DNA of 28,889 nucleotides from a virus, in the IMG/VR virus record IMGVR_UViG_3300017989_001665, positions 1 through 28,889 of that record, one strand, 5' to 3'. The first letter of the stretch is position 1. Each line of letters opens with the position of its first letter. Shown here in pieces: positions 2,708 to 26,355 of the stretch. The notes beneath the pieces are model-generated. The model saw only the letters and a list, made by a program, of their open reading frames with translations, had not been told where the DNA came from and did no database searches. Both the position numbers and the translations under genes were made by a program.

Positions 2708-3212
2708 TTGTTTCATAGCGATTATTCTGGCGGCACAGAATTCATATGCGGATGACCAGTGCAAGGTGCAGGACTACGAGTCGGACAGAGAGCCGGATTT
2801 CAAGTGTCCTTCTCCGGGCGAACTGGAATTGCTCGGACATGTAGACCTCGAGCGTCCTGTTGTTTTGAAGGAAGGCGATATTGCTCCATATGAAGGAGCC
2901 TTATATACGAAGGCGGCGATCATCGAAACAGATTTGCAGATAATGGCACTGCGGCAGTTACGATGGCTGGACGGATGGAAAAGGCGACGGCTTCATCTGG
3001 CGGATACTGAGCTACGCAGATCAATGCACGATGCCAAGCTGGTTATAGCGGAAGCGGAAATACTTTCACTGAAACAGGAGAACAGCAGGTTGAGCGAGGA
3101 GGCGGAAGTGCAATGGTATGAGGAGCCGGTATTATGGCTGGCGGTGGGCACGGTTATTGGCGCGGTTCTCGGTGGGGGAATCGGTTACGGATATTCTCTG
3201 ATTTCACGTTAA
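2640..3212 (+). CDS. Exported spanin-like protein with C-terminal membrane anchor
   Basis: A 190-residue protein with a basic N-terminus, a hydrophobic stretch (about 19-33) and a likely signal-peptidase site after SYA (residue 37), a polar domain with Cys, a charged helical region (about 110-155) and a C-terminal Gly-rich membrane segment (about 164-186). Signal at one end, coiled coil in the middle and transmembrane segment at the other resembles a unimolecular spanin, although the only lipobox-like string (VVSC, 21-24) precedes the hydrophobic core and is unconvincing. GGAGAAG lies about 8 bases before the ATG. It overlaps the upstream gene by 68 bases in another frame, reminiscent of Rz/Rz1 nesting. 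Confidence 0.5.
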   Translation: MNQIKRVWKMYSTGHIKYAAVVSCFIAIILAAQNSYADDQCKVQDYESDREPDFKCPSPGELELLGHVDLERPVVLKEGDIAPYEGALYTKAAIIETDLQIMALRQLRWLDGWKRRRLHLADTELRRSMHDAKLVIAEAEILSLKQENSRLSEEAEVQWYEEPVLWLAVGTVIGAVLGGGIGYGYSLISR

Positions 3213-3246
3213 AAAACACGGAAAAACCAAGGAAATAGCGGCATTT

Positions 3247-3266
3247 ATTCCGTAACTATGCGGAAT
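3247..3266 (+). terminator. Weak hairpin after the lysis-type genes
   Basis: ATTCCG (3247-3252) and CGGAAT (3261-3266) form a 6-bp stem with an 8-nt loop, 35 bases after the spanin-like stop. There is a CTTTTT run about 20 bases downstream but none directly after the stem. It may be a weak terminator or an operator next to the promoter that follows. Confidence 0.25.
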
Positions 3267-3303
3267 CATTAGGGAACTTTCTGTCTTTTTATGTCGATTT
3301 TCC

Positions 3304-3333
3304 TTGATACCAATATAGAATATAATTTATACT
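3304..3333 (+). promoter_or_regulatory. Sigma70-type promoter of the accessory operon
   Basis: TTGATA (3304-3309) matches the -35 consensus at 5 of 6 positions and TATACT (3328-3333) matches the -10 consensus at 5 of 6, with an 18-bp spacer. The AT-rich spacer and the location 22 bases before the start codon of the first accessory gene fit an early phage promoter. The predicted start near 3340 would leave a very short leader containing only the Shine-Dalgarno AAAGGAGG. Confidence 0.55.
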
Positions 3334-3354
3334 TAAAATAAAGGAGGCAGCACG

Positions 3355-3732
3355 ATGAAACTAATAAATAAAAAACACTACATTAACAAGGACGCGGCAA
3401 TTGGGAAACTGAAGAAGGACCTGATGTCTCTTTTATTCGTGAATCCATTTTGCAGATTGGAAGCAAAATTCACGAGAGACGGCTGGCGGTGCGTGGTTGT
3501 TGAAAAAGGCAACGTTATAAAGCGCCCAAGAATTGAGACTGTCGAAGCACTTGCAAGAGCCGGTTACCTGAAGGCGGACAGGCTGGACCCGGATAAAAAG
3601 AAATCTTATCTGTACAATCCGACGGAAAAACTTTTCCGGAAAGTTCTCAAACTTCAGCACAAGGCAGCGGGCCCGGCGGATGTGTTCGATGCAATGATGA
3701 GGAGGTCAGCGACTTTTAATCTGTATGCTTAA
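3355..3732 (+). CDS. Unknown basic protein, first gene of the accessory operon
   Basis: A 125-residue Lys/Arg-rich protein, predicted mixed alpha/beta, preceded by AAAGGAGGCAGC. I recognise no family. It has one Cys near residue 33 and one in the GWRCVVVE strand, but no paired zinc motif. It is the first gene after the promoter at 3304-3333, and its stop codon lies inside the outer stem of a large hairpin (3729-3780), so the end of translation and the RNA structure are physically linked. A nucleic-acid-binding role is possible from the charge alone. Confidence 0.6.
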   Translation: MKLINKKHYINKDAAIGKLKKDLMSLLFVNPFCRLEAKFTRDGWRCVVVEKGNVIKRPRIETVEALARAGYLKADRLDPDKKKSYLYNPTEKLFRKVLKLQHKAAGPADVFDAMMRRSATFNLYA

Positions 3733-3780
3733 TCAATGATGACTGCCTATCGGCAACGGTAGGCAGAGATGATTGATTAA
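3729..3780 (+). ncRNA. Bulged hairpin H1 (member of a three-copy family)
   Basis: Outer stem TTAATCAAT (3729-3737)/ATTGATTAA (3772-3780) is 9 perfect pairs. A 5/5 internal loop (GATGA and AGATG) leads to a 9-bp inner stem CTGCCTATC (3743-3751)/GGTAGGCAG (3758-3766) closed by the loop GGCAAC. The overall architecture and the core CAACGGTAGG recur at 3973-4031 and 9771-9821. No U-tract follows, so it is not a simple terminator. The stop codon of the upstream gene is inside the outer stem. Confidence 0.6.
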
Positions 3781-3972
3781 TCACTGTTCTTTGAAATGCG
3801 AATCGGAACGAAGACATCAGCTTCCAAGAAAAATGTCCCGTTCCACTTTTAACAATTCTTGGCGAGTATCAAAGCGGCCAGAAAAACTGAGGCAAAAAGT
3901 AAGACCTCTTAAACAAATCCTTACCGGATGGCGGCGATACTTTTCCTAGCCGACAGGCAAAACGGAAAGCCA

Positions 3973-4031
3973 GCTTAATTGTTGTTAGAGTGCATCATTG
4001 GTAGATGGTGCACTCAATAGAATGATTAAGC
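3973..4031 (+). ncRNA. Bulged hairpin H2 (same family as H1 and H3)
   Basis: Outer stem GCTTAATTGTT (3973-3983)/AATGATTAAGC (4021-4031) forms 11 pairs including two wobbles. A 4/5 internal loop (GTTA and AATAG) leads to a 12-bp inner stem GAGTGCATCATT (3988-3999)/GATGGTGCACTC (4004-4015) with loop GGTA. The core CATTGGTAGA aligns with CAACGGTAGG in H1 and CAATGGTAGG in H3. It ends 62 bases before the HNH start and closes the structured segment on its 3' side. Confidence 0.6.
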
Positions 4032-4045
4032 GAGCAAAAAAAAAA

Positions 4046-4058
4046 CGTCCACCACCAG
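4046..4058. repeat. CGTCCACCACC repeat, copy 1
   Basis: CGTCCACCACCAG follows a CGAGC-A10 stretch in the leader of the HNH gene. The same 11-13 bases occur at 7942-7954 and 19763-19773. See the finding on this repeat. Confidence 0.5.
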
Positions 4059-4093
4059 ATCATAAAAAACAGATTAAAAAAAAGGAGGCGACC

Positions 4094-4489
4094 ATGAATA
4101 GGAAAGAAAAGAATCAAGGCATGAATTGGGTTAGGCAGTCAACAAGGTTGGCTATCTATCTCAGAGACGGACTTGCTTGTGCGTATTGCGGCGACTCATT
4201 GGAACAAGGCGCACAGCTCACGTTGGATCATTTGAAGCCGCATTCGAAAGGCGGAACGAATGAGGCGAAGAATTTAGTAACGTGTTGCCATAGGTGCAAC
4301 AGTGCACGCGGCAACAGGCCGGTGAAAACATTTTGCAAGACGGTAGCCGAGTATCTTAATCACGATGCGGATCCGGATGAGATTCTCAAGCATGTCAGGC
4401 GGACAGCTCGCAGGCAGTTACCACGGAAGGAAGCACGCAAGCTGATAAAGCGCAGAGGTTCCGTGGCGAGAGTACTGGCGAGAATGTAA
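4094..4489 (+). CDS. HNH homing-type endonuclease
   Basis: A 131-residue HNH-family nuclease that nicks or cuts DNA with a metal-bound His/Asn centre. C29-x2-C32 (CAYC) and C65-x2-C68 (CHRC) form the zinc site, the DH pair of TLDHLKP is at 45-46 and N60 lies in KNLVTCCHRCN. The C-terminal third is strongly basic and probably binds DNA. The start at 4094 is chosen because AAAGGAGGCG is 7 bases upstream; a longer frame from 3998 would run through hairpin H2 and has no ribosome binding site. It lies directly downstream of the structured RNA segment, as homing endonucleases often lie next to introns or RNA elements. The alternative is an ordinary free-standing phage HNH. Confidence 0.85.
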   Translation: MNRKEKNQGMNWVRQSTRLAIYLRDGLACAYCGDSLEQGAQLTLDHLKPHSKGGTNEAKNLVTCCHRCNSARGNRPVKTFCKTVAEYLNHDADPDEILKHVRRTARRQLPRKEARKLIKRRGSVARVLARM

Positions 4490-4528
4490 GCGAATAAAAA
4501 AATGTAAACCATAAAAAGGAGGCGAGTT

Positions 4529-4882
4529 ATGAGAATTAATTACACATGCAAAAAATGCGGTCAGATAATTCCGAAGAAAGATATTGATGAATTTCAGGAT
4601 GGATTGAAATGCGGCGGTGATCCTGAATGGGATTGTATTCCTGCATGGTGTGGTGATTGTGCTGAAAAATGTTCGGCTGGCTCGGCAGAGCCGTATGATG
4701 AAATACAGGAAAAGAATCCTGTAAAATCATATTTGGCGGACATCAAATACAATGTAGATTTACTTCTGGCAGATAAGGATTTCATGGAAAACTTTGAAGA
4801 CAGCGAGCATGTTGTTACGGAACTGGAGAAGGCCAGAAAGATACTTTGCAATGTATGGGATTACATTGGTGAGAGAAAATAA
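4529..4882 (+). CDS. Small zinc-ribbon protein
   Basis: A 117-residue protein with an N-terminal Cys-rich module (residues 1-47): CKKC near the start and CGDC after IPAWC, with further Cys between. The module closely matches the C-terminus of the protein at 7566-7934: both have CxxCG, then an acidic strand, a D-G pair, IP-x-xC and DCAE. The rest (about 60-117) is an acidic helical domain without a recognised family. The gene starts after AAAAAGGAGGCGAG. Probable role is a small regulatory or protein-binding phage factor; the zinc binding is inferred from Cys spacing. Confidence 0.6.
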   Translation: MRINYTCKKCGQIIPKKDIDEFQDGLKCGGDPEWDCIPAWCGDCAEKCSAGSAEPYDEIQEKNPVKSYLADIKYNVDLLLADKDFMENFEDSEHVVTELEKARKILCNVWDYIGERK

Positions 4883-4896
4883 AGGAGATCAGAACA

Positions 4897-5091
4897 ATGA
4901 AAAAAGCAATAAAGAAAATAAAAGTTAATTCAATGGGTGAGGCGCACAAAATAGCAATGGCGGTTGCTTTTAATTCTGGCAGGACAATCGAGGCCAGAGA
5001 AATGTTCGGCTGCTTTTTAATAATAAAAAATTCAGAGACTGTTTTGGCCATAGTTGGGGTTGGTCAAAAAAGTAAAGGAGATGTACAATGA
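4897..5091 (+). CDS. Small unknown protein
   Basis: A 64-residue alpha/beta protein with a basic start (MKKAIKKIKVNSMGE), a helix (about 13-25), and a hydrophobic strand region FGCFLIIKNSETVLAIVGVG. AAAGGAG lies 10-12 bases upstream. It overlaps the next gene by ATGA, indicating coupled translation. I do not recognise the family. Confidence 0.6.
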   Translation: MKKAIKKIKVNSMGEAHKIAMAVAFNSGRTIEAREMFGCFLIIKNSETVLAIVGVGQKSKGDVQ

Positions 5092-5321
5092 GTAAAATAG
5101 AAACCGACAGAAGAGAAATACTGGACGCTATTCATGCATTGGAATACGCAAATGAAAACGATTATGCATTGGATGGCATTACAGACGAAGATGTAAAAAA
5201 TTTCAGAGCTGTAGGCGGGGCAATATTTGAACTGAGAAAAAATTCTGCTGTTCGGAATTTATGCAGGAGCTTGAATCTCAGCATGGAAGACGTTCTGAAC
5301 ATTGCCATAAGATTTATGTGA
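5088..5321 (+). CDS. Small helical protein, NENDY/GITD family
   Basis: A 77-residue acidic helical protein. Its core matches the N-terminal half of the protein at 7566-7934: both have NENDY, then GITD, an FR motif, a Gly, and near the end L-x-LNLS-x-E-x-V-x-x-IA. I infer a common ancestor and call it a local paralogous domain; the LNLS-helix part resembles a small helix-turn-helix, but this is weak. It is coupled to the upstream gene by ATGA (AAAGGAG 7-9 bases before the start). Function unknown. Confidence 0.6.
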   Translation: MSKIETDRREILDAIHALEYANENDYALDGITDEDVKNFRAVGGAIFELRKNSAVRNLCRSLNLSMEDVLNIAIRFM

Positions 5322-5329
5322 GCGATGCA

Positions 5330-5509
5330 ATGACAAACAGGAAAGGTAAAATAAGGAAAGTAAAAATAACCAATCAAAGGCGAGCGAAGTGTTTCTACTG
5401 CAAGCGCACGGAACCAAGCTCAAAACGACTTCGAGAATTTGAAGCAATGCCGGACGAAGAATTCGACAGATTTTATTGCGGATGCCGGGATCCTGTTTCT
5501 AGACGATAA
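5330..5509 (+). CDS. Small Cys-containing basic protein
   Basis: A 59-residue basic protein with CFYC and CGC clusters that could bind one zinc ion, separated by an acidic stretch (EFEAMPDEEFDRFY). I start it at the ATG at 5330, 8 bases after the previous stop, instead of the in-frame ATG at 5261 that would lie inside the upstream gene. The Shine-Dalgarno is poor, so translation may depend on coupling. It is the least certain of the small genes here. Confidence 0.45.
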   Translation: MTNRKGKIRKVKITNQRRAKCFYCKRTEPSSKRLREFEAMPDEEFDRFYCGCRDPVSRR

Positions 5510-5546
5510 CCTTTTTTCAATCAGAAATAATTTTATAGCCAAGCGA

Positions 5547-5592
5547 AAGCCGGAACATTGTTTCCGGCTTGTCGGAGTGTGGCGACTCCGGC
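5547..5592 (+). ncRNA. Tandem back-to-back hairpins
   Basis: AAGCCGGAA (5547-5555)/TTCCGGCTT (5562-5570) is a perfect 9-bp stem with loop CATTGT. With no spacer it is followed by GTCGGAGT (5571-5578)/ACTCCGGC (5585-5592), an 8-bp stem with loop GTGGCG. The two could stack coaxially. CTGATGAG (5593-5600) and CGAAA (5605-5609) follow. The element fills the gap between the stop at 5509 and the gene at 5624 and has no U-tract. Confidence 0.5.
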
Positions 5593-5623
5593 CTGATGAG
5601 CAGCCGAAAAAAAGAGGTGAGCT

Positions 5624-5827
5624 ATGAAAAACAAAAAGGCGAAAAAGAAACTGAATGAGGCGGAACGAGAGTACAGCAAAGTACTTCGGACATATTCCGA
5701 TACGATGCTGGCCGAAACGATTGAGACGCTTGTGAGAGAGCACAAGAATCTCAGGATGAAAAAGACCATGGCAATTCATGAAGCACAGCGGCGTGGTTTT
5801 GCTGGCATTTGCCAGTCAAAAAAATAG
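5624..5827 (+). CDS. Small basic helical protein
   Basis: A 67-residue Lys/Arg/Glu-rich protein predicted to be two helices (about 5-22 and 25-58). AAAGAGGTGAGCT precedes the start. It follows the tandem hairpins, which lie in its leader. I recognise no family. Confidence 0.55.
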   Translation: MKNKKAKKKLNEAEREYSKVLRTYSDTMLAETIETLVREHKNLRMKKTMAIHEAQRRGFAGICQSKK

Positions 5828-5836
5828 GAGGCGAAA

Positions 5837-6106
5837 ATGAAGGGCAAAATTAAAATCGAATCGTTGAAGCGGTTCTTAGCAGTGAAGGTGGACGAGGCAA
5901 CGTTACAATCGGATGAGTATCGCAAAAAGGGCGAACACAAGGCGGCAGATATAGCGCATGGCCGGACGGATGCTTATGTGTATTTGTTCGATTTGTTTTT
6001 AAGAATTGATGATGCTGAGAATCCGGACAGTGATTTGAATCATCGAGTGCAGACAATATCTGCACAGATAAGGAGATTACAAAATGAAAAAGCGAAAGGG
6101 ATCTAA
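5837..6106 (+). CDS. Small helical protein of unknown function
   Basis: An 89-residue largely helical protein with AGGAGGCGAAA before the start. It has a His/Arg-containing centre (EHKAADIAHGRTDAY) and an acidic loop (DDAENPDSD). No family recognised. Its 3' end overlaps a 22-codon open frame with its own Shine-Dalgarno. Confidence 0.55.
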   Translation: MKGKIKIESLKRFLAVKVDEATLQSDEYRKKGEHKAADIAHGRTDAYVYLFDLFLRIDDAENPDSDLNHRVQTISAQIRRLQNEKAKGI

Positions 6107-6152
6107 TAAACCGAAGCCGATTAGCAATGAGGACGTCAAACATTGGGCGTAG
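6084..6152 (+). CDS. Possible 22-residue basic peptide
   Basis: ATG at 6084 opens a 22-codon frame (begins MKKRKGSNKPKP, ends HWA) preceded by AAGGAGA with about 8 bases spacing. It overlaps the end of the previous gene by 23 bases. The arrangement matches other coupled genes here, so it may be a real micropeptide, but length alone cannot prove it. Confidence 0.3.
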   Translation: MKKRKGSNKPKPISNEDVKHWA

Positions 6153-6175
6153 CCAAATAAAAAAGAGGGTGAATC

Positions 6176-6652
6176 ATGAACATTATTAAAAAGAACAGCG
6201 GTCACAAAATAGCAATGGTCAGCCATGCGAGAGCTTGTCAGAATAAAAATAATTATGAAGATGAAAATCTTCCAAAGGACAAGGCTACTCTGGTATTTTT
6301 CCTTATGAGAAAATGGCTGGAGATTGGAAATAAAAATGCATGGATCAGAGAGAGTATGGATCCTCCATTCAATGTGGAATCATTTTGCCCGTGTTTGTCC
6401 AGAGAAGACCTTCAAGAAAAATTCGAACATGGGAACTGGTGTCTCGGTCAGGCGTTTTATTACCTGAAGGATGGCAAGGGTTATTGCTTTATCAATCAGA
6501 TCAACGGCGGTGATGAATGGCTGGTTATCAGAAACTGTATTCAGTTTGAAAGTGTGACCATGGCGGCTGTAATACGGGACGGAAAATTTGAGGACTTTCT
6601 TGACCGGATCGAAAAGGCTACAGACAGCCAGTTAGCAAGACTGGAATACTAA
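6176..6652 (+). CDS. Unknown 158-residue protein
   Basis: A 158-residue alpha/beta protein with several Cys and aromatic residues (SFCPCLSRED, GNWCLGQAFYYL, GKGYCFINQINGGDEW). The alternating pattern YLKDGKGYCFINQINGGDEWLVI suggests a beta-sheet domain. No family recognised. The start follows AAGAGGGTGAATC, a weaker Shine-Dalgarno than its neighbours. Confidence 0.6.
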   Translation: MNIIKKNSGHKIAMVSHARACQNKNNYEDENLPKDKATLVFFLMRKWLEIGNKNAWIRESMDPPFNVESFCPCLSREDLQEKFEHGNWCLGQAFYYLKDGKGYCFINQINGGDEWLVIRNCIQFESVTMAAVIRDGKFEDFLDRIEKATDSQLARLEY

Positions 6653-6662
6653 GGAGAGGACA

Positions 6663-6893
6663 ATGCCAAAGAAACAGAACAAGGAAAAGAAAATTCGGGA
6701 ACTGGACAAAGAGATAAGAAAGACATTCCGTGAAATTTCGGACATCGGTTACGAGCTTTTCGATCTCTCAGGCGTAACATGGCAGGAGCAGGAGATACTT
6801 GAAGAACGGTTTAAGGACCTGCATGTAAAAAAGAACCGGTTAGTCAGAAAGTTCAAGCGTCTTACCGGGGAGGGAAAATACGATGCCTTATAA
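6663..6893 (+). CDS. Small coiled-coil protein
   Basis: A 76-residue, strongly charged protein predicted to form two antiparallel helices (about 4-32 and 40-70) around LSGVTWQEQ. AAGGAGAGG precedes the ATG. Its last 11 bases overlap the next gene in another frame. Function unknown. Confidence 0.55.
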   Translation: MPKKQNKEKKIRELDKEIRKTFREISDIGYELFDLSGVTWQEQEILEERFKDLHVKKNRLVRKFKRLTGEGKYDAL

Positions 6894-7374
6894 AATTGAA
6901 TGGAACGGCGGAGATTATAGCAACGTGGAACACGGAAGGTTTTATTGGGATGGCGAGTGCGGTCCATGCGGAAGGCCATCTGTAAAACGCAAAGGAGGGG
7001 TGAATAAAAATATACCGATTGTGGTTGATGCGTTTCTGGATTGCAGAGGGTATTCTCCGCAGTTGATCAGGATGCAGGGGTTATCTTTCATTGCTGGTGA
7101 GATTGTAGCGAAAGCATTGCACGACAGAATATCTTTCCTGCGGTGCAGTCATCCGGCAATAGGTTATGGTCCCGGCGGCAAGAAAACATACTTCTTGGTT
7201 CATCCCGGATTGATTGATCGTTTTATGACAGTATCCGGCTGGGGTGGTCGTAATGACAAGGAGAAGGGTCGGTCGGATGCCATAGGCGAAGTGGCATTGG
7301 CGATGATAGATTTAATTCCTTCGGCGGATGAATGCGAAAAGATGGCAGCCAGCATCAAGGAGAAAGCAAAATAA
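6883..7374 (+). CDS. Unknown 163-residue protein
   Basis: A 163-residue protein with a Gly/aromatic-rich N-terminus (EWNGGDYS, RFYWDGECGPCG), a CGPC pair near residue 27-30, a central helix with GLSFIAGEIVAKALHDRI, and a PGGKKTYFLVHPGLID strand region. No family recognised. Start at 6883 is supported by GGGGAGGG 10 bases upstream inside the previous gene, so the two are probably coupled. Confidence 0.55.
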   Translation: MPYKIEWNGGDYSNVEHGRFYWDGECGPCGRPSVKRKGGVNKNIPIVVDAFLDCRGYSPQLIRMQGLSFIAGEIVAKALHDRISFLRCSHPAIGYGPGGKKTYFLVHPGLIDRFMTVSGWGGRNDKEKGRSDAIGEVALAMIDLIPSADECEKMAASIKEKAK

Positions 7375-7387
7375 AGAGAGGTAAGCA

Positions 7388-7573
7388 ATGGCTAAGAAAT
7401 ATTATCAGGTCACTTTGACAGTGACGGTCGAAGAAAATGATCTTATCGAATCAGAACTGGATGTTGAAGGATGGATATGGAATCAGCTTCATGAAGAGAA
7501 TGAGTATATGGAACTTAATGCTATTAATGCAACAGAACATGTAAACCTTAAAAAGGAGGCGGGCTATGAATGA
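7388..7573 (+). CDS. Small acidic protein
   Basis: A 61-residue acidic protein starting with a beta strand (YYQVTLTVTVEEND) followed by helices. Its 3' end overlaps the next gene by 8 bases and contains that gene's Shine-Dalgarno AAAAGGAGGCG. Family unknown. Confidence 0.55.
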   Translation: MAKKYYQVTLTVTVEENDLIESELDVEGWIWNQLHEENEYMELNAINATEHVNLKKEAGYE

Positions 7574-7934
7574 CATAAGAAAGAAACTGATGGACATGGA
7601 CCGGGAAAAAATTTACAGCGCGATTCTAAAGCACGATTCAGAAAACGAGAATGATTATACTCGGGAGGGAATAACAGACCGAGAGGTGAGGATGTTTCGC
7701 ATAATAGGAATGCGCGGGATGGATGCCTTGTGGGTTGACGTAAAAGATTTGGCGAAGATGTTGAATCTGTCCGGCGAGACAGTCATGTCTATAGCGGAAG
7801 AATATTTTTCAATCTGCGAAAACTGCGGCAAGCGTATTACGGAATATGATATTAAAGTTTATCGGGACGGTGTAAATCATCCGGATGGCATTCCGTCATA
7901 TTGTGCAGATTGCGCGGAATTAGAATCAGCATAA
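7566..7934 (+). CDS. Two-domain protein: NENDY/GITD domain fused to a zinc ribbon
   Basis: A 122-residue protein that combines two modules seen separately nearby. Residues about 14-83 match the protein at 5088-5321 (NENDY, GITD, FR, LNLS, IA). Residues about 86-120 match the N-terminal zinc ribbon of the protein at 4529-4882 (CENCG, then a D-G pair, IPSYCADCAE). The four Cys of CENC and CADC probably bind zinc. This is a clear local case of domain fusion or fission. Function unknown; a small DNA- or protein-binding regulator is plausible. Confidence 0.65.
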   Translation: MNDIRKKLMDMDREKIYSAILKHDSENENDYTREGITDREVRMFRIIGMRGMDALWVDVKDLAKMLNLSGETVMSIAEEYFSICENCGKRITEYDIKVYRDGVNHPDGIPSYCADCAELESA

Positions 7935-7941
7935 ATAAAAC

Positions 7942-7954
7942 CGTCCACCACCAG
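7942..7954. repeat. CGTCCACCACC repeat, copy 2
   Basis: CGTCCACCACCAG followed by CCCCATAAAAAAGG, in the 43-base gap before the next gene. It shares CCACCACCAG with copy 1 and the AGCCCCA tail with copy 3. Confidence 0.5.
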
Positions 7955-7977
7955 CCCCATAAAAAAGGAGAGGCAAT

Positions 7978-8175
7978 ATGGATTACAAAACAAGAACAAC
8001 ATTAACAGAAAACAATGAAGGCAAATGGACGGTATCTGTTCAGGCATATGATAAGACCGTCTGGACAGGCGGGTATTATCATTCTTTTGGTGAGGCTTGT
8101 GCAGCTGCCGAGCGTGCAATAGGCGACGTTTATCAAATGATTGCAAGGCGCGAAGGAGGAGAAAAAAAATGTTGA
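7978..8175 (+). CDS. Small unknown protein
   Basis: A 65-residue protein with beta-strand character at the start (TRTTLTENNEGKWTVSVQAYDKTVW) followed by a helix containing HSFGEACAAAERAIGDVY. The strand-strand-helix pattern resembles small phage proteins that wrap a single sheet, but no family is recognised. AAAAAAGGAGAGG precedes the start; the 3' end carries the next gene's GAAGGAGGA. Confidence 0.55.
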   Translation: MDYKTRTTLTENNEGKWTVSVQAYDKTVWTGGYYHSFGEACAAAERAIGDVYQMIARREGGEKKC

Positions 8176-8459
8176 ACCTTTCAGACAGCATGCTCAAGGA
8201 ATTGAGAATTCTCAAAAGACATTCGGACGGCAAGATGGCATTCGGCATGAAGATCAAGGATAAGCCTCCGGTGTGCAGAACTGAAATGTTACTTAGCGTA
8301 GCTAATGAATTCGTTCAAAAAGGTTATGCAACATTCATGGATATTGATAAATCCAGAGTGAAGATAACCAAGGAGGGAGAAAAGCTCGTAGAAAAATTTT
8401 TTAATCGCAAGACATACAAGGCCGATAAGCGGTTTAATTATCTGGCACAGTCCAAGTAA
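8169..8459 (+). CDS. Winged-helix-like small protein
   Basis: A 96-residue protein. The start at ATG 8169 has AAGGAGGA 10 bases upstream; a longer frame from 8097 lies inside the upstream gene and is rejected. The pattern of a helical start (LSDSMLKELRILKR), a helix ending EFVQKGYATFMDIDKSRVKITKEGEKLVEKF resembles a winged helix-turn-helix: recognition helix, two-stranded wing and final helix. A transcription regulator is therefore possible, on fold pattern only. Confidence 0.5.
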   Translation: MLNLSDSMLKELRILKRHSDGKMAFGMKIKDKPPVCRTEMLLSVANEFVQKGYATFMDIDKSRVKITKEGEKLVEKFFNRKTYKADKRFNYLAQSK

Positions 8460-8476
8460 TAAAAAGGAGGGTAACA

Positions 8477-9139
8477 ATGAACGGAACAAAAAACGCAGAC
8501 AGGCCGAAGGAATTCGGACAGGTATGTGTATGGCCGGGAACGGTAGTGAAGACGGCGAGGGCTGAAGGAGACAGCGTAAAAGATTTCGAAGAGCATGTGC
8601 GAAAAGAATTTGGCGTGCGGGTAATGTATCTTGAGGAGATTACAACAGCCCCGGACATCGAGAATGGTAAACCTGTTGAAGGCACAGGCGGAAGGAATGA
8701 TTTGTTTTTCGCTGTACACAATGAGGACGTTGAAAAGTTCGCAGTGCCGAGGCTGTCGGTGGGAATCCGCTGGATAGGCGATGTCCTGTCAAAAGAAAAT
8801 TATCTGAGTCCAATATATCCGGAGAGGGTATTTGAGTACGTTTTGAGAAAAGATGTGCTTACGAAATACGCGGATGATGATGGCGAAGATGATGATTGTG
8901 ATTCCTACTTCGAAGACATTGAGCGTCTGGAAGAAATCCGTGAAAGGATGCATGAGCTTCTGGAGGAGGCCGAAGAAATAGTTCGTAATTTCGAAGGCGG
9001 CGATATGGCATACCAGAGGGCGAAGAGTTACTGGCTGGCACATATCAAAACGGCATTGGACGATGAGCATGATTATCTTGGCGGTTCAATGGTAACCATG
9101 GAGGACACTATTAACGAGATGGAGAAAGTAAACCAGTAA
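8477..9139 (+). CDS. Unknown acidic protein with helical tail
   Basis: A 220-residue protein, the largest of the accessory set. The N-terminal half is mixed alpha/beta (FGVRVMYLEEITT, NDLFFAVHNEDVEKFAVPRL). A very acidic linker (about 133-147, DDDGEDDDCD) leads to a long helical C-terminal part (EEIRERMHELLEEAEEIVRNF). It is the first gene in the window with the ribosome binding context GGAGGGTAAC. No enzyme motif is visible. Confidence 0.55.
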   Translation: MNGTKNADRPKEFGQVCVWPGTVVKTARAEGDSVKDFEEHVRKEFGVRVMYLEEITTAPDIENGKPVEGTGGRNDLFFAVHNEDVEKFAVPRLSVGIRWIGDVLSKENYLSPIYPERVFEYVLRKDVLTKYADDDGEDDDCDSYFEDIERLEEIRERMHELLEEAEEIVRNFEGGDMAYQRAKSYWLAHIKTALDDEHDYLGGSMVTMEDTINEMEKVNQ

Positions 9140-9163
9140 AAACAGAAAGGAGTAACAGAAAGC

Positions 9164-9409
9164 ATGATTTGTGTAATGGCAAAAATCAGGAGAGGTGAGT
9201 TCACTGTAGGTGGTCAGAAATTCGAACCTGTCGAAATGAACAGGCTGTTCGATGTGCCCGTAGACAACGTGGCGACAGCAGAAAAGGAGGTAAAAAAACA
9301 GATCGAAAAAATAAATAAAACTGGACGGCAGGGAAACTACGAGTATATCGGTCCCTGTAAAATGGCAGACAGCGGTGTTCAGCCCAAAGTCAAAGCCAAG
9401 GCTGAGTAA
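9164..9409 (+). CDS. Small unknown protein
   Basis: An 81-residue protein with strands (EFTVGGQKFEPVE) and a charged helix (VATAEKEVKKQIEKINK). AAAGGAG lies 11 bases before the ATG at 9164; a second ATG at 9176 is possible. No family recognised. Confidence 0.5.
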   Translation: MICVMAKIRRGEFTVGGQKFEPVEMNRLFDVPVDNVATAEKEVKKQIEKINKTGRQGNYEYIGPCKMADSGVQPKVKAKAE

Positions 9410-9442
9410 CTCAAAACGAAACAGAGAAAGGAGAAGAAACAG

Positions 9443-9763
9443 ATGGCGAAAAAAACAGGAAAAGGATCAAGCAACAAAGCCCCGAGCGCAACAAATCAGG
9501 AACCCAAGACAGACCCGAAACCTCCGGCACCGAAGACAAGCGAAGTCGTTTTCGAAAAAAAGGAAACGAAGACTCTGGTGATTGAAGATGACTCCAAGAA
9601 ACGGGCCATTTTTATCAAGGAGAAAGGCGAGAGAAAATCGTTGGTCATCCTTCGTTTTGCAAAGCAGCTTTATGTCAAAATGTCGGATGAGCAGCGCAAG
9701 GAGGTCGCGGAGGCATCCCTGAATGCAGTCATAAGCTCATTCAATAAACAGGGATGGAAGTAA
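9443..9763 (+). CDS. Small protein with disordered Lys/Pro-rich start
   Basis: A 106-residue protein whose first about 33 residues are Lys/Pro/Thr/Ser-rich and probably disordered, followed by a compact alpha/beta part (about 35-106) with strands EVVFEKKE and KTLVIEDD and a C-terminal helix. AAAGGAG precedes the start. Hairpin H3 begins 8 bases after its stop. Family unknown. Confidence 0.5.
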   Translation: MAKKTGKGSSNKAPSATNQEPKTDPKPPAPKTSEVVFEKKETKTLVIEDDSKKRAIFIKEKGERKSLVILRFAKQLYVKMSDEQRKEVAEASLNAVISSFNKQGWK

Positions 9764-9770
9764 CAGCGGT

Positions 9771-9821
9771 TTAATTACTGCTAGGGCCTACCAGCAATGG
9801 TAGGTCCACTGGAGTAATTAA
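9771..9821 (+). ncRNA. Bulged hairpin H3 (same family as H1 and H2)
   Basis: Outer stem TTAATTACT (9771-9779)/AGTAATTAA (9813-9821), extendable by three pairs with wobbles, a 4/5 internal loop (GCTA and ACTGG), and a 9-bp inner stem GGGCCTACC (9784-9792)/GGTAGGTCC (9799-9807) with loop AGCAAT. The core CAATGGTAGG is shared with H1. It lies in the 83-base gap between two small genes and has no U-tract. Confidence 0.6.
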
Positions 9822-9846
9822 GCTCCCATAAAAGGAGGCGAAAAAA

Positions 9847-10077
9847 ATGGACGCAGGAATAGAGCTTTGTTCTTTATGTGATTATGAGCTTTATAATTTG
9901 CTGGATAGTCTCATAGCAAAAAAGCAACGGTACTACGAGATGACAGCATTGGGCAAAGACGAAAAGCTCATGGAGATGCTTCGAGATGTTTATCATCTGG
10001 ATATCGAAAAAATAGATTTGGATATTCAGCGTGTCGAAGAAGAACTGGACATTCGATTTTCGGAAGAGACCTATTAA
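9847..10077 (+). CDS. Small acidic helical protein
   Basis: A 76-residue protein predicted to be mostly helical, with two Cys near the N-terminus (ELCSLCDYE), too few for a normal zinc site. AAAAGGAGGCGAAA precedes the start, just downstream of hairpin H3. No family recognised. Confidence 0.5.
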   Translation: MDAGIELCSLCDYELYNLLDSLIAKKQRYYEMTALGKDEKLMEMLRDVYHLDIEKIDLDIQRVEEELDIRFSEETY

Positions 10078-10092
10078 CAAAAGGAGGCGAAA

Positions 10093-10392
10093 ATGAAAAA
10101 CAAAATAGCGACTAATCGGCTTCTTGATTCGGTATGGACATTAGAATACCAAGAACTGAACACGGGTGAAATAGAAATCATTTCGTATTCAAGGGATAAC
10201 CCATACGGATATGATCGGGAAAGAGAAGTGCCAATGGTCAGGCTTGTTGAGGAAGACCCGAACAGGACCGTGAAGGCAGTAAGGTTTGCAGAATACGAAC
10301 AATTCGGACGTTGCACGAAGTGGGGTGAGTCTATTCCTGTTGCAAATCCAAAGCCAGTTTTTCAGTATCCATATCAGGGTCAGGTACAATGA
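10093..10392 (+). CDS. Small unknown protein
   Basis: A 99-residue beta-rich, polar protein (VWTLEYQELNTGEIEIISYSRD). AAAAGGAGGCGAAA precedes the start. It overlaps the next gene by ATGA. No family or catalytic motif recognised. Confidence 0.5.
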   Translation: MKNKIATNRLLDSVWTLEYQELNTGEIEIISYSRDNPYGYDREREVPMVRLVEEDPNRTVKAVRFAEYEQFGRCTKWGESIPVANPKPVFQYPYQGQVQ

Positions 10393-11740: not shown

Positions 11741-11748
11741 CCAGTGAT

Positions 11749-11857
11749 TTTCCTTTCCGGCATACAGCCGATAGAACCAGATAATGCGGACAGGGTTTTA
11801 AGATTCGCCTCTTTTTTACCTGTTTGTGGTTCTGTCGGTTGTATGCTGGGAAGGAAA
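11749..11857 (+). repeat. 31-bp uninterrupted inverted repeat (long hairpin)
   Basis: 11749-11779 pairs with 11827-11857 over 31 consecutive positions with no mismatch, using four G-U wobbles. A second stem, ACAGG (11790-11794)/CCTGT (11819-11823), extends it towards a 24-nt apical loop. The wobbles mean the element is a better hairpin as RNA than as DNA, which favours selection at the RNA level. Confidence 0.7.
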
Positions 11858-12076
11858 GCGCAATTAAGCAGCGATACTTCAGTGAATGAACAAGGGTTAA
11901 GCATACGACATTAAAAAAGAAACCGGCTACAAAATGATACATAAAGAAAGGGGTGATATACCTAAGACAACAGCGACGCGGACTTCTTTAATAAAATTGG
12001 ATAGATAACTTTTCTATGAGCAAACTTTTTCAAGAAAGATACTAAGTGCTATTAAAAGTATGGAGCCGGTATTGTT

Positions 12077-12174
12077 GCATGGTTCGGTAATGATTTCATG
12101 CGGGTAGGTTCCCTATGAAGAAAAACGGCGTTTTGAAAACGCATGGTTCAGTAATGATTTCAGCCGGATAGGTT
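12077..12174 (+). repeat. Two-copy direct repeat, 34 nt, period 64
   Basis: Copy 1 (12077-12110) and copy 2 (12141-12174) match at 30 of 34 positions, starting GCATGGTTC and including GTAATGATTTCA and TAGGTT. Between them lies GCGTT/AACGC, a short hairpin. Copy 1 is flanked by GGAGCC/GGTTCC pairing, while copy 2 can form AAAAC/GTTTT around GGTT/AGCC. Confidence 0.55.
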
Positions 12175-12395
12175 TTGTATGGCGACAACATACAAATAGA
12201 ATGATCTTCTTTCTTTACCGGTACCTAATACTGCAGCATTATTTTTGCATTATGGCTGTACATCATACAGCAATTTTATATAATGCGTAGTACCTTAGTA
12301 CATAGTAAATCTTACGTTCTATTATTTTGATTGATTGAATATGAAGACGAATTGTCTTTAATCAAATTTATTAAAAGGCAATGTATTGAATCAAC

Positions 12396-12412
12396 AGGTA
12401 ATTTAATTACCT
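12396..12412. promoter_or_regulatory. Palindromic operator-like site before the RavA-like gene
   Basis: AGGTAATT-T-AATTACCT is a perfect 8-bp inverted repeat with a one-base centre, 40 bases before the start codon at 12453. The single-base centre is typical of a dimeric protein-binding site more than an RNA hairpin. No sharp -10/-35 pair overlaps it that I would defend. Confidence 0.4.
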
Positions 12413-12452
12413 TAAAAAACTGGAAAAAGAACCAGAGAAAGGAAAGGGTAAC

Positions 12453-13619
12453 ATGGACAGAGAGAGAATCGCTTTTAATAATCTGGCGAAGGAACTGAAG
12501 ACGGCATATCTCGAGCGCGGAGAGCTGGTTGATCAGGTATTGGCATGTCTGGTCAGTGGGAAGCATATCTTCCTGCTGGGCCCTCCCGGTACAGCGAAGT
12601 CGAGCCTTTTGAAAGCGGTATGTAATTCAATGGAGGACTCAAGATATTTTTCGTGGCTACTTACGCGGTACACGACTCCGGAGGAACTGTTCGGACCGCC
12701 GTCAATCGAAGGCCTAAAGAACGACAGATTCGAAAGAGTAACAAAGGGAAAGCTTCCGGAGGCGGATCTGGCATTCATTGATGAGATATGGAAGGCCAGC
12801 AGTTCAATAATAAATACCTTACTCACTATCATGAACGAGCGCGAGTTTTACAACAATGGTGGTGGTAAGCCGATGCAGTGCCCGTTAAAATTCTTGGCGG
12901 CTGCATCAAACGAAATGCCGGCGGATGATGAGCTTCAAGCGATGTACGACAGATTTCTGGTGAGGACGGTTGTGCAGCCTGTAGTTTCTGAATCAGCGAC
13001 AAGAGCTTTGCTTACGCAGGATGATCCTCAGAAAATGATAAAAGAAAAAATCACTGCGAAGATTCTGAAAAAAGCTATGGACACAGCCAGCAAGGTCAAT
13101 GTGCTGGACGATACTGTGGACACGGTGATTAAGATTCGTAAGACTCTCAAGGCGGACGAAGGCATTGTTGCCAGTGACAGAAGATGGAAAGAAATCTTTT
13201 CATTCCTGAAAGCGGTTGCATGGCTGAGCGGAGATGATGAGGTCATCCCGGAACATCTGTCAGCTACTGTGGACTGCTTATGGGAACAGCCGGATCAGCG
13301 TAATACAGTTGCAAGCGTTGTAGGCAAGATTTCTTCTCCGGCAGTTGCTGAAGCGCGTGAGCTTCTGGATGCGGCCAAGGACGAAGCCAAGAAGGCACTT
13401 GAGGCTGCGAACAATTCGGATGCTGGCAATAATCCCGAGATGCTTTCACAGCTCGGAAAGGCGAACAGTCGTCTGGACAAGAGTGTGAAACAGGTTCAGG
13501 CGTTGTATAACAAGACAAAAAGCAAGGCGTCGATGGAAAAGATAAAAGCCATTTCGGAAGAACTTTCAGGACTCTGCAATGAAGTGAAGGAGACGGCGCG
13601 GAAGACTCTGAAAATATAA
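12453..13619 (+). CDS. RavA-like MoxR-family AAA+ ATPase
   Basis: A 388-residue AAA+ ATPase of the MoxR group. Walker A is GPPGTAKS (43-50), Walker B LAFIDEIW (106-113), sensor 1 AASNE (150-154) and a likely arginine-finger region YDRF (165-168). The stretches TRYTTPEELFGPPSIEGLK and NTLLTIMNEREF are very close in pattern to E. coli RavA. It is shorter than RavA (about 500 residues) and ends in a charged coiled coil in place of RavA's extra domain. MoxR ATPases work with vWA-domain partners as chaperone-like or metal-insertion machines, and the next gene encodes such a partner. The start has AAAGGAAAGGGTAAC upstream. It follows a 712-nt structured leader region. Confidence 0.85.
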   Translation: MDRERIAFNNLAKELKTAYLERGELVDQVLACLVSGKHIFLLGPPGTAKSSLLKAVCNSMEDSRYFSWLLTRYTTPEELFGPPSIEGLKNDRFERVTKGKLPEADLAFIDEIWKASSSIINTLLTIMNEREFYNNGGGKPMQCPLKFLAAASNEMPADDELQAMYDRFLVRTVVQPVVSESATRALLTQDDPQKMIKEKITAKILKKAMDTASKVNVLDDTVDTVIKIRKTLKADEGIVASDRRWKEIFSFLKAVAWLSGDDEVIPEHLSATVDCLWEQPDQRNTVASVVGKISSPAVAEARELLDAAKDEAKKALEAANNSDAGNNPEMLSQLGKANSRLDKSVKQVQALYNKTKSKASMEKIKAISEELSGLCNEVKETARKTLKI

Positions 13620-13629
13620 GGAGGGTGCT

Positions 13630-15258
13630 ATGGTGATCGATAAGAAATTTTTCGATGACAATGAAGCGCCGGCAGTCAAGAAAGAAGTCATCAAGGAAAG
13701 TGTGCGCGGTCCTGATTTGAAGATGGACATGCCGAGAAATAGCTGGGAGAGAGTGCAGTGGGAAAAGTTCCTGAATGATACGGAAGGCAATGAAGTACCG
13801 GATGGACTGGATCCACGAGGGATGAACAAAGAAAAAAACGAACAGATGGTCAGTCCTACGTGGCCGGGCTTTTCCCGGGAATTGTTTTCCCGGCTGTTGA
13901 ATGCAGATCAGGTTGAATGGAAAAAAGAACCAAGTCCAGAACATGCATGGGCCGATCTTGCACATAAGTCAGCGGACGAAGTGCGGGAATGGGATAATCT
14001 TCAGCGGCGATGCTACGATGATGAGACGTGGTCGGCTATGGCGGCATTGAGCATTGCAAGTTCTGTGAAGGAAGTGGTTATCGGCATTGCGACTACTGAA
14101 GATTTACAACAGGAACGAGAACAGGCTGCAGGACTTCAGGCTCTTGCTCAGTGGATGCAGAATCAGGCAGACAAAGAACAGGATCCTGCGAGACAGCAAC
14201 AGCAACAGGAGAAGGCGGACAATCTCAACCAGCAAGTTGAAGACCTTATGAATCAGATTCAGCAAAAGGAACGACAGGCACAACAGCAGGCGAGTCAGGT
14301 AGATCCTTCTACGATGAGACAGGCGGTGCGTGCGGGTATTAATCAAGCACAGAATCGAATTGAAGAAACTGAGCGAGCGATGTCCATGCTTGGGGCAGGT
14401 AAGGATCCGGGCAAGCTTCAGCGTTCTGGCGGTTCGCAATTGAAGACAGCTCTTGCCAAGAAAATCATGGAGAGCGAAAAGCTTAGACAGATAGCGAAAC
14501 AGGCTGGACGACTTAGAACCACTGCATTGAGAAAGGCCAGAACAAAATGCAAGACCGGCCGGTCTGAATATTACGGCGTGGAGCTTGGTGATGACATCGG
14601 ACGGATGTTGCCGAGTGAATTGATCAAGCTTGTTGATCCGGCGCTGGAGAGTCTTTTTTATCGGGGACTTCATGAAAAGTCTTTGTCTCAGTATCGAGTG
14701 CGGTCAAGGGAGCGTGAGAATCGCGGACCGATAGTTGTGGCGATTGATACATCCGGATCCATGTACGGAGATAAGGAAGTGTGGTCGAAGGCGGTTGCCT
14801 TGGCATTGATTTCCGTAGCGATGGAACAGAAGCGACCGTGGGGTGTAATGTTGTGGGATACTTCACTTCAGGACACGGTTTTATCTGCAGACGGAATGGC
14901 ACGGCCTGAACAAATGATGGAATGGCTTGAGGCGTTTTCAGGAGGCGGTACACATATGGATGTACCTTTGAGAGAATCCATGCGGATGATTAATGAATGT
15001 AAGGAGCTGAGAAAGGCGGACGTGATTCTTATCACGGATGGTTGTGCGAACATTTCAAAAAGTGTTCAGGAAAAATATCTGAAAGCTTCCGAAGAAAACG
15101 GATGGTCAACGTTCGGCGTGCAAATCGGTGGCGGATGGGAATCAGGTCTTGAACTGCTGGCAGATATTTGCGGCAAGCAAAATGTACACGAGATAAGCGA
15201 TATGCTTTCGCGTGAAGATGAGGACAGAATTCTGGAGCGAATAGTTCCGGGCAATTAA
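13630..15258 (+). CDS. vWA-domain protein, ViaA-like partner of the MoxR ATPase
   Basis: A 542-residue protein. The C-terminal half (about 365-530) is a von Willebrand factor A domain with the metal-ion (MIDAS) motif DTSGS at 373-377, a Gly-Gly-Thr (SGGGTHMD) and ITDG further on. The central part (about 160-260) is a Gln-rich coiled coil and the N-terminal part is unassigned. In E. coli the RavA ATPase is paired with ViaA, a vWA protein; this gene is 10 bases downstream of the ATPase with AAGGAGGG before the start, so the two almost certainly act together. The substrate is unknown. Other phages are known to carry MoxR/vWA pairs, but their role is not settled. Confidence 0.85.
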   Translation: MVIDKKFFDDNEAPAVKKEVIKESVRGPDLKMDMPRNSWERVQWEKFLNDTEGNEVPDGLDPRGMNKEKNEQMVSPTWPGFSRELFSRLLNADQVEWKKEPSPEHAWADLAHKSADEVREWDNLQRRCYDDETWSAMAALSIASSVKEVVIGIATTEDLQQEREQAAGLQALAQWMQNQADKEQDPARQQQQQEKADNLNQQVEDLMNQIQQKERQAQQQASQVDPSTMRQAVRAGINQAQNRIEETERAMSMLGAGKDPGKLQRSGGSQLKTALAKKIMESEKLRQIAKQAGRLRTTALRKARTKCKTGRSEYYGVELGDDIGRMLPSELIKLVDPALESLFYRGLHEKSLSQYRVRSRERENRGPIVVAIDTSGSMYGDKEVWSKAVALALISVAMEQKRPWGVMLWDTSLQDTVLSADGMARPEQMMEWLEAFSGGGTHMDVPLRESMRMINECKELRKADVILITDGCANISKSVQEKYLKASEENGWSTFGVQIGGGWESGLELLADICGKQNVHEISDMLSREDEDRILERIVPGN

Positions 15259-15279
15259 AAAAAAGAAAGGGGTAACAAA

Positions 15280-16212
15280 ATGAACATGAGAAATTTATCA
15301 GCAAAAGGGAGAGTGGATGCAATCGTAAAGGCGGTAGAATTTGATGGAGCACTACTTGGACATATTGTCTGGTGGACTCTCAGGGAGGCGGAAGTGGATT
15401 GCGATGCTCTGAAAAAAGCGATGGAAGATGCTGGCATTGATTCTGAACAGCTCGGCATAAAAGAACCGAGCGCCAAGCGTATTTTAGGCCGTGCAGTAGG
15501 GAAGCTTTCGATAGAGCTTTCATCCAAAGAACGAAGGAATGGATCAACGTATCTTTTCAGGCCGGTACCTCTCGAAGACAGGACAGCAGCGTTTGCTATT
15601 GTATCCGAGAAGGAAAAGACAACTTCTGAAAAAGTGGAGAAGCTGATTCACAAGACTGTGGATGTCGTATCTGTGGACAAGGAAGGAGAGATATACAGCG
15701 AAAAGAATCATGATACGGCAGACAAGCTGATAGAAAAATATAAGCGTCTGAAAGGCAAACTGGCTCCACCGGAAGTCAGAGCCGCTATGATGCAGCTCAT
15801 GGTCAGTTGGGATTCTTTCCGGCTCAGAGACGGAGGGGGAATATATTTTGTTCCGGCTGGATTCGACAAGGAGCTGGCAGCATTGAAGGTCGCGGTAGAG
15901 TCCGTTGGTGCGTCGGTGTTTTATATCGTGCCGGTACCGGATGTGGCGGGAGCAAGAGAAGGTATAGCCAGTGCAGCCAAAGGAAGTCTGGAATCAGAAC
16001 TTGCAGCTATCCAGCAGGAGATGGAAAAATTTGACGACAGCACCAGAATGAAAACACTGGAAAGCAGAATCGGGACACTTCAGGATGTACTGCGAAAGGC
16101 CCAGTTATATAATGATGCGCTTGGCATGGCACAGTCTGACGTTAAGCGCATGGTTAGAAAATTGCAGACAAAAATTGAAGCGATTGTATTGGGCAGAGAA
16201 GATGCAGCATAA
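15280..16212 (+). CDS. Third protein of the AAA+/vWA module, function unknown
   Basis: A 310-residue protein. The first about 200 residues are mixed alpha/beta, with strands RNGSTYLFRPVPL and GGGIYFVPAGFD; the C-terminal about 80 residues form a coiled coil (ELAAIQQEMEKFDD onward). It follows the vWA gene by 21 bases with AAAGAAAGGGGTAAC and precedes a new promoter, so it belongs to the same transcription unit as the ATPase and vWA genes. It is a candidate substrate, adaptor or effector of the pair. It might belong to a phage DUF family seen near such genes, but I cannot confirm which. Confidence 0.6.
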   Translation: MNMRNLSAKGRVDAIVKAVEFDGALLGHIVWWTLREAEVDCDALKKAMEDAGIDSEQLGIKEPSAKRILGRAVGKLSIELSSKERRNGSTYLFRPVPLEDRTAAFAIVSEKEKTTSEKVEKLIHKTVDVVSVDKEGEIYSEKNHDTADKLIEKYKRLKGKLAPPEVRAAMMQLMVSWDSFRLRDGGGIYFVPAGFDKELAALKVAVESVGASVFYIVPVPDVAGAREGIASAAKGSLESELAAIQQEMEKFDDSTRMKTLESRIGTLQDVLRKAQLYNDALGMAQSDVKRMVRKLQTKIEAIVLGREDAA

Positions 16213-16236
16213 TATTAGCGATAGTAAATAATATGA

Positions 16237-16266
16237 TTGACAGCATAATAATATTTCCTTAATAAT
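16237..16266 (+). promoter_or_regulatory. Sigma70-type promoter of the replication/recombination operon
   Basis: TTGACA (16237-16242) is a perfect -35 box. AATAAT (16261-16266) matches the -10 consensus at 5 of 6 with an 18-bp spacer. The predicted transcript starts about 30 bases before the XRE-type regulator gene, whose product could act on this promoter. Confidence 0.55.
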
Positions 16267-16301
16267 GCAGATTGTGAAGAGGCGAGAGAGGAGCATGTCG
16301 T

Positions 16302-16688
16302 ATGAGCAATTCTAAAAACATAAGGACGGCAAAGCTGAATCGCAAACAGGCTATCAGCAAACGGAAGGTGAAGCTGAACAAAACACGCCCGGGCATTATT
16401 ATTGATAAGGACAAGTTATATCAGCGAGTATGTGAGATAGCGGATGAGCGCGGAGTAACACTGGCGGACCTTGCAAGAGATGCTGGTGTTACTCCGGCAT
16501 GGTTGAATACAGCTTTGACCAGCAAGTCGGGAATGACTCTGGACACTCTGGCAGTGTTTGCTCACATATGCAAAACGAAGCCGGGAAAATTATGCGATGA
16601 GTTTGCAGAGATAGTCCCATTAAAGAGAGGAAGGAATGACAAAAAGAAAAAGAGCCAGACAAAGACGGCAGTATCTATCTCAAAGTAG
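16302..16688 (+). CDS. XRE-type helix-turn-helix regulator
   Basis: A 128-residue DNA-binding protein. A basic N-terminal tail (1-28) precedes a Cro/C1-type helix-turn-helix domain (about 36-102): LADLARDAGVTPAWLNTALTS carries helices 2 and 3, followed by LDTLAVFAHICKTKPGKLCDE. The C-terminus is Lys/Thr-rich. It is the first gene behind the TTGACA promoter and probably regulates it or the replication operon. Its 3' end overlaps the next gene by 53 bases in another frame, so the basic C-terminal tail is encoded over that gene's start. GAGAGGAGCATGTCGT lies before the ATG. Confidence 0.75.
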   Translation: MSNSKNIRTAKLNRKQAISKRKVKLNKTRPGIIIDKDKLYQRVCEIADERGVTLADLARDAGVTPAWLNTALTSKSGMTLDTLAVFAHICKTKPGKLCDEFAEIVPLKRGRNDKKKKSQTKTAVSISK

Positions 16689-18018: not shown

Positions 18019-18031
18019 AGGAGGGTAACAA

Positions 18032-18841: not shown

Positions 18842-18896
18842 ACAAATTAGGACGGTGCAGAAGGCACATGTCTGTTTATGTCGTAAACTTTTTAAC

Positions 18897-18913
18897 TAGG
18901 AATTTGATTCCTA
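18897..18913. repeat. Inverted repeat upstream of the SSB-like gene
   Basis: TAGGAAT (18897-18903) and ATTCCTA (18907-18913) form a perfect 7-bp repeat with a 3-base centre, ending 21 bases before the start codon at 18935. It could be an operator or a small hairpin controlling translation of the DNA-binding protein. The upstream half of this 93-base gap also holds GTTT/AAAC pairing, with no clear promoter. Confidence 0.4.
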
Positions 18914-18934
18914 AGAAAGGACAAGGAGGGTAAC

Positions 18935-22297: not shown

Positions 22298-22310
22298 AAG
22301 GAGGAGAACC

Positions 22311-24055: not shown

Positions 24056-24063
24056 GAGGAGTC

Positions 24064-25050: not shown

Positions 25051-25074
25051 ATTACACGGAGGTAATTAAAGTAG

Positions 25075-25635: not shown

Positions 25636-25636
25636 G

Positions 25637-25957: not shown

Positions 25958-25997
25958 AAATTGGAAACGCAAAACAGAAACAGAGATAGGAGACATT

Positions 25998-26354: not shown

Positions 26355-26355
26355 A

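Follow-up and report, generated by a model that had tools for sequence, protein, structure and literature searches.

Hairpins with the build of T7-type RNase III signals bracket a stretch without evident gene upstream of an HNH gene in an unclassified phage

What is encoded, if anything, by the 361 nucleotides at 3733-4093 that separate a gene without assigned family from a gene for an HNH endonuclease in an unclassified phage? The stretch lies within a window of 28,889 nt (the whole piece of DNA analysed here), which corresponds to positions 39748-68635 of the 86,553-nt record IMGVR_UViG_3300029267_001213 (99.997% identity, one gap). This longer record carries genes for the large terminase, portal and tape-measure proteins, together with a tRNA-Met and a tmRNA at 463-856; the tmRNA encodes the tag ANQQKALAA and, by blastn, has no counterpart among the phages of the collection. 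The first-pass annotation had described the 361 nt as a possible new structured RNA, with two interleaved helix pairs bracketed by two large bulged hairpins, and had proposed the HNH gene as its companion. On the whole, the pairing segments are present, the region is structured and the bracketing hairpins stand, whereas the second interleaved pair is at chance level.

No close relatives of the phage were recovered. Scans of IMG/VR with its primase/helicase and its terminase, which as single-protein scans detect close relatives only, returned the same phage alone, and the matches to these two proteins in the phage collection all lie below 60% identity (about 22-27% among the matches listed). 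Across the four proteins used for IMG/VR scans (HNH, gene 3355, primase/helicase and terminase), relatives outside the same phage were obtained for HNH alone. The window ends in short tandem duplications at 28767-28889, where the overlapping matches correspond to 68513-68678 of the 86-kb record. The elements discussed below are the following:

3355-3732, + strand: upstream gene of 125 aa, neighbour of the 361-nt stretch, its stop codon overlapped by HP1
3726-3783, + strand: hairpin HP1, with a lower stem of 9 bp, a 5/5 internal loop, an upper stem of 10 bp and a GCAA loop
3784-3971, + strand: the core, between HP1 and HP2, with an unremarkable nested fold (z -0.75)
3972-4032, + strand: hairpin HP2, with a lower stem of 11 bp, a 4/5 internal loop (GUUA/AAUAG), an upper stem of 12 bp and a 4-nt loop
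4094-4489, + strand: gene for an HNH endonuclease of 131 aa, preceded by a ribosome-binding site of its own
5541-5609, + strand: hammerhead ribozyme of type II (54.9 bits, cut-off 37), flanked by small frames that belong to the same gene block
9766-9824, + strand: hairpin HP3, upstream of gene 9847-10077, with a lower stem of 12 bp, a 4/5 internal loop (GCUA/ACUGG), an upper stem of 10 bp and a GCAA loop

As had been noted, no gene is evident within the 361 nt. The longest + strand frame inside them, a TTG-start frame of 58 aa (3773-3949), has no match among the PHROGs families at E 0.1 or among phage records at E 1, and a second TTG frame starting at 3998 is an extended form of the HNH frame. 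The 125-aa frame upstream has no match in PHROGs or Pfam, and no intrinsic terminator was found within 3200-4600. The string CGTCCACCACCAG occurs at 4045-4057 and again at 7941-7953, each time before a ribosome-binding site on the + strand; its 10-mer GTCCACCACC has a third copy at 19763-19772 and none on the - strand of the 86-kb record.

The 361 nt fold at -106.1 kcal/mol with a z of -5.90 (none of 100 shuffles as low) and of -5.53 in a repeat test. Taken by part, z amounts to -7.63 for HP1 (3726-3783), to -6.85 for HP2 (as 3972-4036) and to -0.96 for the core (3777-3971); the low value of the whole is thus nearly all due to the bracketing hairpins, which are the strongest part of the first-pass annotation. 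Its wider claim of a new structured RNA holds in so far as the region is structured and lacks a match in Rfam, but what rises above chance are bracketing hairpins of a known kind and not the interleaved core. We searched 4227 Rfam families, presumably including the introns, RNase P, HEARO, GOLLD and ROOL, and no family matches the stretch at its curated score: the sole gathering match in the window is the hammerhead, and the best match below threshold within 3200-4600 is to a Plasmodium RNA (E 1.5). The suggested kinship with ribozymes, tmRNA-like RNAs or introns finds no support, and the tmRNA of this phage lies elsewhere. The element was not found in the literature consulted on T7 processing, phage hammerheads and phage RNase III or non-coding RNA, and its absence is claimed no further.

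The window holds a second gene-poor stretch, of 712 nt at 11741-12452, with a very strong fold (z -7.3, none of 20 shuffles as low). It includes a hairpin at 11744-11861 with a predicted uninterrupted stem of 31 bp plus 9 bp, and a 48-nt motif present twice at 79% identity (12077-12124 and 12141-12188). Rfam gives it no gathering match (best below threshold E 0.15, a miRNA family), and a scan of IMG/VR with one recurring 18-mer recovered no relatives; the nine other stretches containing the 18-mer share little beyond it by blastn and appear by eye to be coding. We regard the 712-nt stretch as a candidate second orphan RNA, larger than that at 3733-4093.

The hairpins share a distinctive two-part build. 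All three occupy gene borders of the gene-bearing strand, with HP2 and HP3 between frames. When two-part hairpins were scanned across all 86,553 nt, HP2, HP3 (there at 9767-9823) and HP1 ranked as the top three with 23, 22 and 19 pairs, followed by an 18-bp hairpin within a reading frame; the maximum in five shuffled copies was likewise 18. A rule chosen after the hairpins had been seen, which requires both stems to have 9 bp or more and the internal loop to measure 4-5 by 4-5 nt (the 9-bp rule), returns exactly HP1, HP2 and HP3 on the + strand of the 86.5-kb record and nothing on its - strand. Nothing passes it either in 40 shuffled copies of the record, in lambda, in HK97 or in two sets of other contigs, one of 40 (739,224 strand-bases) and one of 53 (408,620 bases, searched on both strands). 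With both stems relaxed to 8 bp, matches appear in the 40-contig set (six), in the 40 shuffles (12), in lambda (one) and in HK97 (two); one such match falls in L017, an HNH-bearing contig, over 1 kb away from the HNH gene.

The + strand versions of HP1, HP2 and HP3 fold at -28.8, -29.1 and -32.0 kcal/mol and their reverse complements at -20.1, -18.4 and -22.1 kcal/mol, which is 8.7-10.7 kcal/mol less well, and the structure therefore belongs to RNA of the gene-bearing strand. By energy alone the three are not extreme, since values of -34 to -30 kcal/mol occur in other 64-nt windows of the record, including several coding ones. The most stable 64-nt window of the record (12329-12392, -34.1 kcal/mol) is a long GC-rich hairpin, 72% of which lies outside frames of at least 55 aa. 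Compared with one another, HP1, HP2 and HP3 keep 19 of 19 pairs, 11 of which vary and eight of these on both sides, a result that is partly circular because the hairpins were found by their pairing. HP1 and HP3 have loop and stem letters in common, so that the paired changes look like change within one common element.

HP2 and HP3 have the build of the R-type signals of phages T7 and T3, and so does HP1 save for its 5/5 loop. Applied to T7, the 9-bp rule picks three sites, all coinciding with RNase III sites; in T3 it picks R1.1 and R4.7, both annotated as RNase III recognition sites, so that the rule is specific and not sensitive (two of the 10 annotated T3 sites). Of 10 T7 cut positions used at first, 2005 was dropped as it has no hairpin, and nine were kept. 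A covariance model was built from six of these nine, R1.3, R3.8 and R6.5 being left out for their differing folds, and recovers eight of the 10 annotated T3 sites above its background. With this T7 model HP2 scores 20.6 bits (E 0.0061 in the window) and is the sole one of the three above background; HP3 scores 13.4 and HP1 9.5, compared with 13.8 for a place on the - strand of the window and 13.5 for the best match in lambda. With filters off, HP2, HP3 and HP1 rank first, second and fourth within 3300-10300 and first, third and sixth in the window; under default filters on the 86-kb record none of them is returned, and the one match lies elsewhere (E 1.3). The likeness in build is therefore clear, and a T7-type likeness in sequence applies to HP2 only.

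A joint model of the six T7 sites, six of the 10 annotated T3 sites and the three hairpins detects no additional site in the 86 kb; that it matches HP1, HP2 and HP3 holds by construction, as these are built into it. When the hairpins were aligned by MAFFT with the six T7 sites, 93.8% of cells pair as against 64.6% in shuffles, and with both T7 and T3 sites 94.1% as against 67.6%, counts that are owed largely to the T7 and T3 rows. In two of the alignments (A2 and A5) the lower stem of HP1 appears to be one column out of register, which lowers the pair counts.

Taken together, HP1 and HP2 are probably R-type RNase III signals of the T7/T3 kind within a polycistronic transcript, with HP3 as a third, and would free an RNA of about 249 nt. 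The observed geometry, strand and rarity of the hairpins and the pair-keeping changes among them carry this reading. We infer that the region is transcribed throughout and cleaved at the places given below, and that the middle RNA is released. Host RNase III would cut each hairpin once, on the 3' side of its internal loop; in T7 the cut falls there, after the third base at the six modelled sites. Mapped from the T7 positions, the cuts would come after 3769 in HP1, 4018 in HP2 and 9810 in HP3. The message of gene 3355-3732 would thereby gain a protective 3' hairpin, the upper hairpin of HP1, immediately after the stop codon, the message for HNH would acquire a 5' end some 75 nt ahead of the ATG, and the 249-nt RNA (3770-4018, + strand) would be released ending in the upper hairpin of HP2. 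The enzyme is assumed to be that of the host because the RNase III family PF14622 has no match in the 86-kb record, the same search being positive in eight of 14 control genomes; no T7-like RNA polymerase was found among the subset of phage proteins scanned. The hammerhead 1.5 kb downstream fits a transcript that is cut at several points.

What, then, is the core? Every pairing segment of the first-pass annotation is present at 3805-3942, all on the + strand:

3805-3862: candidate H-type pseudoknot, with stem 1 of 11 bp, stem 2 of 7 bp and loops of 6, 2 and 11 nt
3805-3810 GGAACG and 3813-3817 GACAT: 5' side of stem 1, separated by AA
3824-3830 CCAAGAA: 5' side of stem 2
3833-3837 ATGTC and 3839-3844 CGTTCC: 3' side of stem 1, separated by C
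3856-3862 TTCTTGG: 3' side of stem 2
3864-3942: second interleaved element, GAGTATC/GATACTT around GAGG/CCTC interleaved with GTAAG/CTTAC
3864-3870 GAGTATC and 3936-3942 GATACTT: outer stem of the second element
3889-3892 GAGG and 3905-3908 CCTC: first inner stem
3899-3903 GTAAG and 3920-3924 CTTAC: second inner stem

The first pseudoknot goes mildly beyond chance. With a bulged stem allowed, two of 400 dinucleotide shuffles are as good, as is one of 39 equally long pieces taken from window positions 12500-28000; in the simpler test with uninterrupted stems alone, 19 of 300 shuffles are as good, and these statistics are weak because the stretch was chosen after looking. The second interleaved pair has a summed stem energy of -14.3, whereas the best of each shuffle averages -17.0, and is thus not above chance. 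The best pair of pseudoknots in the stretch is reached by two of 400 shuffles, and its second member (3932-3969) clashes with GATACTT. With one pseudoknot mild and the other at chance, a fold of the core is not established.

Two readings accept the RNase III hairpins and differ on the core alone. In the first, each hairpin serves its neighbouring gene and the core is an untranslated spacer, the middle piece being broken down after excision without serving any function; we put the chances of this at about even. The unremarkable fold of the core speaks for it, as does HP3, which stands alone before a gene without such a core, and in T3 the annotated R sites sit at gene borders; weighing against it are the two sites that flank some 190 nt without evident gene in a compact phage, and the one pseudoknot that lies slightly beyond chance. 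In the second, the core would be a new functional pseudoknotted phage RNA, trans-acting or protein-binding, which two cuts set free. This we consider unlikely, even though signals bracket the core, its first pseudoknot is matched by so few shuffles when bulges are allowed, and the predicted product 3770-4018 folds with a z of -3.86 (in part the hairpin of HP2 itself), since the second pseudoknot is at chance, the first is matched by 19 of 300 shuffles in the simpler test, and neither the phage collection nor three exact-pattern scans of IMG/VR yielded a homologue.

In the phage collection, blastn with the core gave matches at E 0.4 only, all of them outside the stretch, in query sequence that precedes it. 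The three exact core patterns recovered 15, 20 and 45 stretches from IMG/VR, the own record counted in each, by scans that overlook diverged relatives; nhmmer found nothing significant among them (best E 0.45, in the tRNA array of contig L046, and E 3.9) and reached E 1.5 at best, in two contigs, among the stretches from the 18-mer scan. The second pseudoknot has an 80%-identical match in the 86-kb record, at 69794, which we rejected as chance; the match falls within a 222-aa open frame (69663-70331) that, read from its letters, may be queE-like. The core may be an excised functional RNA or a spacer, and we lean to the spacer. The fuller proposition, that a pseudoknotted RNA of about 250 nt and of a new class is cut out by two T7-type RNase III signals and acts on its own, strikes us as distinctly doubtful.

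A cis-acting role is very unlikely by our estimate. The stretch would then be either an antitermination site of the rrn kind, with HP1 followed by a boxA-like string, or a leader of the HNH gene. The string in question, TGTTCTTTGAAA (3785-3796), resembles the rrn boxA consensus, follows directly on HP1 and occurs once in the 86.5 kb. An excerpt of PMC10250234 gives the order of rrn elements as boxB-boxA-boxC, with which this arrangement would agree, but the 10-mer TGTTCTTTGA is found twice more on the other strand and is thus not rare.

The link to the HNH gene fares worst. In Pfam the 131-aa protein matches three HNH families and no others. Its relatives outside the phage comprise two viral contigs and five genome contigs, the latter obtained via the HNH alignment, and in the fetched DNA of all seven there is neither a similar core, nor a hairpin passing the 9-bp rule, nor an Rfam match at gathering score. 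The 361 nt upstream of these genes have z values from -3.72 to 1.24, compared with -5.53 in the window; those of L015 (-3.72) and L016 (-2.79) are somewhat structured. An HNH-associated RNA, be it a guide RNA or the remnant of a homing intron, as the first-pass annotation had it, is hence highly improbable in spite of its place directly before the HNH gene, for seven of seven relatives lack the element, Rfam has no match and the protein belongs with HNH families alone.

What holds is two probable processing signals, of a kind already known, in a new phage. This suggests that T7-style RNase III signals, with a loop near that of T7 and T3, are used also by an unclassified phage, one whose DNA also specifies a hammerhead ribozyme and a tmRNA. 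A concrete prediction follows, of three cut sites and one released RNA, that can be assayed in vitro.

The closest parallels are the sites R0.3, R0.5, R1, R1.1, R4.7 and R18.5 of T7 and T3, which like the hairpins described here have lower and upper stems of about 9-12 bp and a small loop, and occupy gene borders of the strand that bears the genes; the inner pair predicted in HP2 and HP3 is the same as theirs. T3 R4.7 has the internal-loop pattern of HP2 and HP3, a mismatch, one pair and then a 2/3 loop. In R1 of T7 and T3 the loop CUUA/AAUAG stands beside GUUA/AAUAG in HP2, the inner UA/AAU being identical, and the single loop base that differs is paired in R1 and mismatched in HP2. T7 R1.1, an RNA of 60 nt, is described as having an asymmetric internal loop of 4/5 (excerpt of PMC6121014), a loop matched by HP2 and HP3, and as being cut by the Escherichia coli enzyme at one bond into 47 and 13 nt (excerpt of PMC4858673). 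Differences lie in the stem sequences, in the 5/5 loop of HP1, in the common T7/T3 loop ACUC/UAUGA, which is missing here, and in the two hairpins that here flank a stretch without evident gene.

The leader and trailer of pre-rRNA offer a second comparison, in that RNase III sites flank a non-coding RNA, and a boxA-like string follows HP1 here. In pre-rRNA, however, the leader pairs with the trailer, whereas HP1 and HP2 each fold locally; a 9-bp cross-pairing between them (3727-3735 with 4023-4031) may be possible. Phage hammerheads provide the third. They differ in being self-cleaving, and no hammerhead matches at HP1, HP2 or HP3. Hammerheads that flank prophage genes have been interpreted as serving to process the long transcripts of phages (excerpt of PMC3088659), and in this phage the hammerhead and the hairpins would together divide one long transcript into pieces of gene size.
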